A DNA stretch of 64,000 nucleotides. Origin: Gluconobacter frateurii (GTDB taxonomy: Bacteria > Pseudomonadota > Alphaproteobacteria > Acetobacterales > Acetobacteraceae). Position numbers and translations under genes: made by a program. The notes under the pieces were generated by a model. That model worked only from the letters and a program-made list of their open reading frames with translations. It was not told where the DNA came from and did no database searches. The stretch is from positions 372,001 to 436,000 of the forward strand of contig NZ_BEWN01000001.1 in NCBI RefSeq assembly GCF_002723955.1. Direction: 5' to 3'. Below, one piece after another: positions 15,837 to 18,110 of the stretch. The first letter of the stretch is position 1; each line of letters starts with the position of its first letter.

Positions 15837-16580
15837 TCAGGCGAGTGTTGTAATGGGTTGAACTGCGCGCGGGGGCTCGGCCTGAAGAGTGGAAGTAGCT
15901 TCGACGTTTTGTTCGTCACGCAGAATATATCCACGCCCCCAGACCGTTGCGATCAGATTTCCAGCTCCGGCTTTTTGCAGCTTGCGGCGAAGCTTGCAGA
16001 TGAACACATCGATAATTTTCATTTCTGGCTCATCGATGCCGCCGTACAGGTGATTCAGAAAGGCGTCTTTCGTCAGGACTGAGCCCTTGCGGATAACCAG
16101 CAGTTCCAGAATGGCATATTCCTTGCCAGTCAGGTGCAGGGCTGTTCCGTCAACCGTGACGTTCTTGCCGTTCAGATCGAGTTCCAGATTTCCAACCCGC
16201 AGGCAGGGTTCGGCAAATCCGCGAGAGCGGCGCATGACTGCCTGAAGGCGAGCGATCAGTTCGCCGGGATCGTAAGGCTTCGTCATGTAGTCATCCGCGC
16301 CCATCGAGAATGCCCGGATCTTGGCTTGTGGACGGAGCAGGGCGGACAGAACGAGAATAGGCGTTGTAATGCGGGCGGAGCGGACCCGGCGGATGACGTC
16401 ATATCCCTCAATGTCGTTCAGCATCAGTTCGAGAACCATCACGTCGTAATCGTAATGGCGGAGCATCTCGATGGCTTCTTCACCTGATGCCGTGTGATCC
16501 ACGGTGAAAGCGGCTGTCCGCAGGATCTGGGACAGAGTGGCTGCGGCCTGAAGATCACTGTCGACAAGAAGGATACGCAT
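15837..16580 (-). CDS. ctrA: CtrA-family response regulator with Glu at the phospho-acceptor site
   Basis: An OmpR-type regulator: receiver domain (about 1-115) and winged-helix DNA-binding domain (about 125-230) containing HLTGKEY, FLNHLYGG and KIIDVFICKLR, near identical to what I know of Caulobacter CtrA, the master regulator of cell cycle and flagellar genes. The ATG at 16580 (GGGAG upstream) aligns it with CtrA without gaps. In that numbering the phosphorylated Asp51 is Glu (MVLELML) and the acidic pair reads D7-S8 rather than E7-D8, while the conserved Lys (MTKPY) remains. A C-terminal tail of about 20 residues ends in LA. It diverges from fliI-fliJ, synteny that fits CtrA. It may be an ortholog that no longer needs phosphorylation, or a paralog. 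Confidence 0.88.
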   Translation of the reverse strand: MRILLVDSDLQAAATLSQILRTAAFTVDHTASGEEAIEMLRHYDYDVMVLELMLNDIEGYDVIRRVRSARITTPILVLSALLRPQAKIRAFSMGADDYMTKPYDPGELIARLQAVMRRSRGFAEPCLRVGNLELDLNGKNVTVDGTALHLTGKEYAILELLVIRKGSVLTKDAFLNHLYGGIDEPEMKIIDVFICKLRRKLQKAGAGNLIATVWGRGYILRDEQNVEATSTLQAEPPRAVQPITTLA

Positions 16581-16694
16581 GTTTTTCAACTCCCGGATTG
16601 GTGAAGTAATGGTTACTACCTAAGGTTGTGCATGTCGATAGACATAAACCAAAAAGCGTAAATTTTTCATCATTCCTTCATTAAGTGTGTTCGC

Positions 16695-16733: not shown

Positions 16734-18110
16734 ATGATTGAAGCCGCCAAAAAACAGGAAAAAAAGGCGATTTCCGGCCGTCTCAAAGGACTGCTGGAAA
16801 AGGTGGCACCCTTGCAACCTGACGGTGCAGTGGGGACGGTCCAAGACGTAACTGGGTTGTGTGTAACAATTCGCGGGCTGGAAGGATTCGTTTCAATCGG
16901 AGATCGAATCGCAATCCGTTCTCGTTCCGGGAGCCTCATACAGTCAGAGGTTGTAGGGTTTCATGATGCACATGCTCGGGTCATGGCTTTTGGCAGTCTC
17001 GAAGGTATCGGGCCGGGTTGTGAGGCGCGTATTCCCCTGAGCCGTCAGTCTTCGGCGTCTCTTGGAGTTAATGAAAGCTGGCTGGGGCGTGTTGTCGATC
17101 CGCTTGGCGTGCCGATGGACGGGAAAGGGGCCTTGGTTCCCGCTCTGGATCAGCAACCTGTTCTCAATTCCCCTCCCAATGCTGCAACGCGCGCAAGGCT
17201 TGGAGACAGGATCGATCTGGGCGTCAGGGCCCTTGATGCGTTTACAACCTGTCGGCGCGGTCAAAGGCTAGGCCTGTTCGCAGGATCCGGTGTTGGTAAG
17301 TCGACGCTGTTGTCCATGCTGGCGCGGGGAGCAGACTGTGACGTCGCGGTGATTGCGCTTGTTGGTGAGCGAGGCCGCGAGGTTCGCGAGTTTATTGAAG
17401 ACGACCTTGGCCCGGAAGGTCTTGCGCGAAGCGTTGTTGTGATTGCGACCTCCGACACGCCACCATTGATGCGGCGGGACGCTGCTGTCTCTGCCATGGC
17501 GATCGCCGAGCATTTCAGGGATCAGGGCAAATCGGTCCTTCTTCTGATGGATAGCGTAACCCGTTATTGCATGGCCTTGCGAGAAATTGGTCTGTCAGCA
17601 GGGGAGCCACCTGCAACCCGCGGGTATCCGCCTTCGGTTTTTGCGGAACTGCCAAAGCTTCTGGAGCGTGCGGGGCCTGGCTATCCGGGCAAGGGAATGA
17701 TTACGGCTCTGTTTACGGTTCTGGTGGAAGGTGACGATCACAACGAGCCTGTTGCTGATGCGGTGCGTGGTATTCTGGATGGGCACATCGTTCTTGATCG
17801 AAAGATCGGAGAGCAAGGACGCTATCCGGCTATCGACGTGTTGCGGTCTCTGTCCCGGGCAGTGCCTGGGTGTAATTCCGCAGAGGAAAACAGGCTAACG
17901 CGCCAGGCGCGCGCGACCATGGCAACCTATGAGCGCATGGCCGACATGATCCGGCTGGGTGCCTACAAACCGGGGACGGAGAAAGATGTGGACGAGGCGA
18001 TCCGCCTTATGCCTCAGCTTGATGCATTTCTGTCTCAGGGGAAAAACGAACGCTCGGGGTGTCTGGATGCCTTTGAGCAGCTTGCAACCATCATGGGCGC
18101 GACCGCCTGA
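16734..18110 (+). CDS. fliI: Flagellum-specific ATPase FliI
   Basis: FliI is the soluble ATPase of the flagellar type III export apparatus, related to the F1 beta subunit. The 458-residue protein has an N-terminal barrel domain, Walker A GSGVGKST (184-191), the conserved GERGREVREF stretch, Walker B with LLLMDSVTR, and the export-ATPase signature around GEPPATRGYPPSVFAELP. The ATG at 16734 has only a weak ribosome site, so the precise start is less sure. fliJ follows after 19 bp. No other flagellar gene lies in the window. Confidence 0.95.
   Translation: MIEAAKKQEKKAISGRLKGLLEKVAPLQPDGAVGTVQDVTGLCVTIRGLEGFVSIGDRIAIRSRSGSLIQSEVVGFHDAHARVMAFGSLEGIGPGCEARIPLSRQSSASLGVNESWLGRVVDPLGVPMDGKGALVPALDQQPVLNSPPNAATRARLGDRIDLGVRALDAFTTCRRGQRLGLFAGSGVGKSTLLSMLARGADCDVAVIALVGERGREVREFIEDDLGPEGLARSVVVIATSDTPPLMRRDAAVSAMAIAEHFRDQGKSVLLLMDSVTRYCMALREIGLSAGEPPATRGYPPSVFAELPKLLERAGPGYPGKGMITALFTVLVEGDDHNEPVADAVRGILDGHIVLDRKIGEQGRYPAIDVLRSLSRAVPGCNSAEENRLTRQARATMATYERMADMIRLGAYKPGTEKDVDEAIRLMPQLDAFLSQGKNERSGCLDAFEQLATIMGATA

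Follow-up and report, generated by a model that had tools for sequence, protein, structure and literature searches.

The sole CtrA of a Gluconobacter carries a natural glutamate at its phospho-acceptor site and is probably a switch fixed in one position

The phosphorylation of CtrA via CckA and ChpT is a textbook bacterial cell-cycle switch, and in Caulobacter the Ala-Ala end of CtrA is the signal for ClpXP. Engineered variants of this regulator have been described. As far as the accessible parts of the papers go, Caulobacter strains with replacement alleles carrying D51E, a stabilised tail, or both are able to grow and are slower in soft agar (PMC12186491). In Rhodobacter, overexpressed D51E slightly lowered GTA transfer and D51A raised it (PMC6363796), opposite results which indicate that the effects depend on the target. 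Under stress such as that caused by ethanol, CckA of Caulobacter is proposed to shift to its phosphatase mode, and no ethanol response appeared when D51E-delta3-omega was expressed (PMC5189948). The absence of relay genes in Rhodospirillales has already been reported (PMC2877005; PMC8116508), the available sections of the latter giving chpT, cckA and divL in 27-36% and ctrA, gcrA and ccrM in 72-82% of the genomes. The accessible text of a study on Komagataeibacter clpP mentions CtrA of Caulobacter only (PMC12733265), and no report of a natural E51 in CtrA was found in the open-licence literature.

Receivers lacking the phospho-acceptor aspartate are the other closest group. According to the available part of a survey (PMC4395418), Glu is their commonest replacement (26%), the second acidic position is acidic in only 29% of them and 70% have a basic residue at the Lys position. 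The same source states that Glu at the phospho-site often does not activate a receiver alone, and that ChxR still binds DNA after its Glu is changed. The residue at the phospho-site of pseudo-receivers was considered an attractive source of activity, which was disproved in some cases, and the way in which these proteins become active is named a central unanswered question in the accessible text of a further paper (PMC12632262).

The window, the whole stretch of 64,000 nucleotides analysed here, encodes on the minus strand a 247-residue OmpR-type response regulator with a pseudo-receiver and a winged-helix DNA-binding domain (ctrA, 15837..16580), as defined by its open reading frame and model matches. 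The gene starts with ATG at 16580, an alternative in-frame TTG being located at 16589, and ends with the stop codon at 15837-15839. The receiver covers residues 3-112 (16245..16574; PF00072, 82.9 bits) and the DNA-binding domain residues 145-220 (15921..16148; PF00486, 74.1 bits), the latter displaying many invariant columns in an alignment of 11 sequences. AlphaFold2 modelling with 11 sequences gave the usual beta-alpha order of a receiver, in which the third strand ends at E51, and a mean pLDDT of 81.1 (71-97 per 10-residue block for residues 1-120); the model is silent on the active state of CtrA. The C-terminal tail (residues 225-247, 15840..15908) was predicted with low confidence and is probably disordered from residue 225.

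The best NCBIfam match of the protein was the CtrA model NF045991 (327.5 bits), below the curated cut-off of 350 of this model, the name of which points to Rhodobacterales. The protein is 85-95% identical to CtrA of named Gluconobacter loci, and its best matches in the other 99 matched genomes of the family show 45-79% identity over nearly the full length, except in genome G062. In that genome, which has both ChpT and CckA, the CtrA match (L114) begins only around residue 63 and contains an internal stop. The genome of the window measures 3.31 Mb and is 99.97% complete. A second, canonical CtrA, which the original prediction had considered as the possible holder of the essential function, was rejected for this genome: among 15 matches, CtrA itself included, the next regulator is only 36% identical. 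The gene is the true and single CtrA of a Gluconobacter. No relatives were found in viral contigs. In six other Acetobacteraceae genomes, second CtrA-like copies with 46-56% identity were observed (L115-L120), several of them with degenerate receivers; they were left out of the residue table. Divergently from ctrA lies fliI, coding for the flagellar export ATPase (16734..18110, plus strand; TIGR03498, 635.2 bits for a cut-off of 587.45), followed by a gene that resembles fliJ (47.5 bits for a cut-off of 50.45). The other flank of ctrA harbours thiD, glmM and ftsH.

The presence of Glu51, Ser8 and a conserved DNA-binding domain was confirmed on the minus strand. From the sequence and the family alignment, codon 51 (GAA, 16428..16430) codes for Glu instead of the phospho-acceptor Asp, and codon 8 (16557..16559) for Ser instead of the second acidic, Mg2+-binding residue. 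Residue numbering rests on Acetobacteraceae relatives rather than on Caulobacter CtrA. Among ChpT-bearing Acetobacteraceae with a readable site, Asp was found at aligned residue 51 in 65 of 65 CtrA proteins and at aligned residue 8 in 64 of 65 (G103 carries N8). Residues 6-10 of the window protein read V-D-S-D-L; the first acidic residue D7 is present along with D9, the conserved switch residue Ser79 (16344..16346) and the conserved active-site Lys101 (16278..16280). The Mg2+ site, which had been called broken, has thus lost the second acidic residue only. With a receiver fold devoid of the phospho-accepting Asp and of another catalytic residue, the protein belongs to the pseudo-receivers. Its likeness to Glu-type members such as ChxR includes the OmpR type, Glu at the phospho-site, a non-acidic second acidic position, and the conservation of the first acidic residue and of Lys (accessible parts of PMC4395418; PMC12632262). 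It differs from them in that a relay-controlled master regulator appears to have been converted in genomes from which the relay genes are missing as well.

In order to look for the CckA-ChpT relay, the genome was searched for both proteins. The Pfam model of ChpT, which does detect the Caulobacter protein, gave no match. Pfam matches below about 26 bits, mostly located in long open frames, were not counted, and the point was settled with a family-specific alignment built from 12 ChpT sequences and searched across 120 Acetobacteraceae genomes. The scores were clearly bimodal: 72 of the 120 genomes reached at least 99 bits, while the other matches listed, which lie in open frames 409-910 aa long, remained at or below 36.7 bits. 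ChpT was undetected in the window's own genome with this alignment too. For CckA, the Caulobacter sequence 5idj was discarded as a query, as it gave no clean score gap, and a family orthologue combined with a tree was therefore used. A CckA call was defined as at least 282 bits with the orthologue query, which 61 genomes pass; this cut-off lies just above a paralogue at 281.1 bits, so that any call falling at about 255-300 bits is uncertain. No CckA call was obtained in 12 of the 65 ChpT-positive D51 genomes, which means that the CckA test misses some. In the kinase tree, the sampled CckA orthologues grouped with 5idj, and the CckA clade contained none of the best CckA-like kinases sampled, three from the own genome and five from other E51 genomes; for the remaining 11 E51 genomes the absence of CckA was read from the score.

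Among the 100 CtrA-bearing Acetobacteraceae genomes, neither ChpT (0/17) nor a CckA call (0/17) was obtained in those with E51. The D8-D51-K101 triad is intact in 64 of 65 ChpT-positive against 8 of 34 ChpT-negative genomes (Fisher 8e-16, uncorrected for kinship); the kinship-corrected test, with three supported independent pairs, gave no significance and had no power. Four of the eight ChpT-negative genomes with D8, D51 and K101 are 77-90% complete and four 97-100%. In four further ChpT-negative genomes (G053, G056, G071, G108) an acidic residue is changed and D51 is kept. The proposal that CtrA has been freed from CckA-ChpT is supported by these data, since ChpT is undetected and the sampled CckA-like kinases fall outside the CckA clade.

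Another kinase or phosphotransfer protein might phosphorylate CtrA, on Glu or elsewhere, ChpT having been replaced. Brilli and colleagues reportedly regarded a replacement of ChpT as possible in organisms having CtrA and CckA. The own genome does offer 23 HATPase matches, of which 18 at E <= 1.5e-16 (by eye, two gyrase-type proteins and a CheA are included), and has hybrid kinases whose catalytic domains resemble that of CckA. This explanation is nevertheless judged very improbable, as the protein has neither the phospho-acceptor Asp nor the second Mg2+ ligand and as the decay of the receiver accompanies the loss of the relay. No clear DivK or CpdR was seen among ten translated of the 27 PF00072 matches, a weak comparison made by eye with the motifs of these proteins.

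The distribution of E51 was then established. E51 together with S8 was observed in 11 of the 11 other Gluconobacter loci read, and a sequencing error as its source was consequently rejected. E51 was also found in Neokomagataea anthophila, Tanticharoenia sakaeratensis, Brytella acorum, Acetobacter musti and Acidomonas methanolica, as well as in three Asaia, two Bombella and two unclassified Acetobacteraceae strains (ESL0709, B3987). At three Bombella/Parasaccharibacter loci (L233, L245, L246), site 51 is Ala and K101 is kept. These residues were read in 41 of 80 loci of named genomes, two partial loci and the others, all of at most 39% identity, being left out; one Asaia and one Bombella locus, two of the 41, were unreadable at site 51. 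In the 120-genome sample, CtrA was detected at E <= 1e-60 in 100 genomes, with D51 in 80, E51 in 17, A51 in two and one unreadable (G062, at site 8 also). The two A51 genomes (L108 = G066, L106 = G001) have lost K101 too (L and A). E51 and S8 are thus shared within Gluconobacter as far as read, and are not fixed across the family, some relatives having D51 or A51.

CtrA was undetected at the same threshold in the other 20 of the 120 genomes, and even the best frame of the Bombella dulcis locus begins to match at residue 94 only, as would be expected if ctrA were a vestigial gene being lost. Such a fate is hardly credible given that the DNA-binding domain is highly conserved, that the gene is open in all 12 Gluconobacter loci, the window included, and that it adjoins fliI and has a conserved upstream element (see below).

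In a careful tree, from which L113 and L114 were omitted (an earlier tree omitted five rows), one group of 15 rows consists of 13 E51, one D51 and one A51, and a group of four rows of three E51 and one D51. Genome G081, with E51, falls outside both groups, and D51 genomes G046 and G060 are placed inside them; the label E51 needs six changes, gains or losses. The E51-rich groups would correspond to acetic-acid bacteria, judging by the loci with names, part of which duplicate sampled genomes. As E51 is largely confined to one clade, its independent origins are few. D8 is kept next to E51 in Acetobacter musti and in genome G009, which suggests that D51E may precede the loss of residue 8.

The main rival explanation is a neutral one, in which the receiver only dimerises, D51E is tolerated without mimicking a phosphate, and the intrinsic dimer is active as in ChxR. 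It agrees with the drift of position 8 to S, N, P, H, G or T in E51 rows, with the existence of A51 and D51 relatives, and with Glu being the commonest replacement in aspartate-less receivers (PMC4395418, accessible part). It is considered unlikely, in view of a Glu that is kept with both of its codons in use (28 GAA and 12 GAG among 47 chosen loci, several being the same species twice) while variation is seen at nearby positions, 50 and 53 among them. Residues 79 (S in 15, T in 2) and 101 (K in 13, R in 4) are likewise retained in 17 of 17 E51 rows, and K101 is lost along with the phospho-site in the two A51 sample genomes, yet kept in the three A51 Bombella-type loci. These loci and the D51 genomes G046 and G060 indicate that Glu is not indispensable. 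Residues D96, D97, R111, R117 and R118, which belong to the dimer face of OmpR-type structures, are invariant in 17 of 17 E51 rows. The divergence of the receiver amounts to 0.453 against 0.267 for the DNA-binding domain in E51 rows, a ratio of 1.70, compared with 1.28 in ChpT-positive rows.

The C-terminal end of CtrA is also modified. As the original prediction had it, the window protein does not end in AA, the last residues being TLA. An Ala-Ala end is present in 44 of 66 ChpT-positive rows, 10 of 15 D51 ChpT-negative rows, one of two A51 rows and 2 of 17 E51 rows (E51 against ChpT-positive, Fisher 6e-5, uncorrected). Since it is frequent in D51 ChpT-negative rows too, its loss tracks the acetic-acid-bacteria group more than the loss of the relay alone. 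RcdA (PF07323) was detected in 0 of the 120 Acetobacteraceae genomes, the Caulobacter control being positive; ChpT-positive genomes lack a match as well, so this absence is not special to E51. Of the two modes of control that had been put forward, synthesis or proteolysis, the latter finds no support here, and the undetected RcdA together with the mostly lost Ala-Ala end points to synthesis.

Compared with CtrA of Caulobacter and other alphaproteobacteria, the window protein has the same domain order, the conserved DNA-binding domain and a CtrA-type box before fliF. It differs by Glu51 and Ser8 in place of Asp and by the loss of the Ala-Ala end, and its genome by the undetected ChpT and CckA orthologue; neither Asp51 nor the upstream CckA-ChpT relay by which a CtrA is recognised was found. 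With the engineered Caulobacter D51E and D51E-delta3-omega alleles it shares Glu at position 51 and an altered C-terminal end (PMC12186491, accessible part). Unlike these alleles, it is natural, occurs in most of a clade and has the second acidic residue changed. A Glu at the phospho-site and undetected CckA and ChpT argue that evolution has probably fixed the CtrA switch in one position.

The explanation which we favour, and hold to be rather likely, is that the relay was lost and CtrA kept as a phosphorylation-independent regulator, Glu51 likely holding the active state, with control by synthesis. The CckA-ChpT relay would have been lost in the acetic-acid-bacteria lineage and CtrA retained as a transcription factor of the pseudo-receiver type. 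D51E would hold a dimer-forming, DNA-binding state as it does in the engineered alleles, Ser/Thr79 and Lys/Arg101 being retained along with invariant charged residues in helix 4-strand 5-helix 5. Both the acidic residue at position 8 and the Ala-Ala end would then be free to decay, so that the output of CtrA would be set mainly by the amount made. A more far-reaching version is possible, if doubtful: the sole ctrA of acetic-acid bacteria could be a natural D51E with a disabled degron, locked on and run by its own promoter. It may have allowed these ethanol-oxidising bacteria to keep CtrA on in alcohol, considering the proposed effect of ethanol on Caulobacter CckA and the unresponsive D51E-delta3-omega cells.

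As far as the open-licence literature goes, the E51 clade is new, and so is the joint loss of relay, phospho-site and degron. A large cultivable clade that keeps CtrA in the absence of its switch would be a test of the contribution made by the phosphate, of the way in which a relay can disappear while its output persists, and of a natural Glu as a working phosphomimetic. Relatives with D51, E51 and A51 are available side by side for the question of pseudo-receiver activation.

Possible targets were searched by means of the CtrA-type box. An exact box, TTAAGTAGGCATTAA (TTAA-N7-TTAA), lies upstream of the own fliF (L343 / L346), the MS-ring gene, which was named by eye and by its relatives. FliF was detected in 95 of the 120 genomes. 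Upstream regions were taken from the 30 best of these 95 matches, 29 being long enough, and a box was counted with at most one mismatch within 200 bp. It was found in 19 of the 29, for 1.21 expected and with 0 of 300 shuffles as high. Among these best matches, 9 of 13 ChpT-positive upstreams have the box (0.11 expected); in the E51 genomes it is present in 6 of the 10 examined (1.01 expected; none of 300 shuffles reached this count) and missing in four. CtrA may control such targets in an active state. Across the own genome, exact boxes are not in excess: 16 were counted, and the reversed control gave 28. CtrA is present in 15 FliF-negative genomes, five of them with E51 or A51 (G008, G066, G070, G073, G101); motility can thus not be its sole role there, if the FliF absences are real.

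About 38 bases before the start codon of ctrA, comparison of upstream regions revealed a conserved element, ACAACC-TTA-GGTAGT-AACC (ACAACC-N3-GGTAGTAACC; 16611..16629, minus strand), which forms an imperfect inverted repeat and was found only with E51 genes. A match of the GT(A/G)GTAAC type occurs upstream of ctrA in 7 of the 17 E51 genomes and in none of the 83 others. The pattern RCAACCNNNRGTRGTAA was detected in 23 of 375 loci, located ahead of ctrA genes with E51; this count includes the window's own gene twice, and several entries repeat a species. Looser forms exist in the remaining named Gluconobacter and in Neokomagataea. A scan for promoters and terminators upstream of ctrA gave nothing. 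The element is a candidate operator, promoter or leader. Finally, GANTC is strongly depleted across the whole window, with 92 matches against 320 expected from shuffles.
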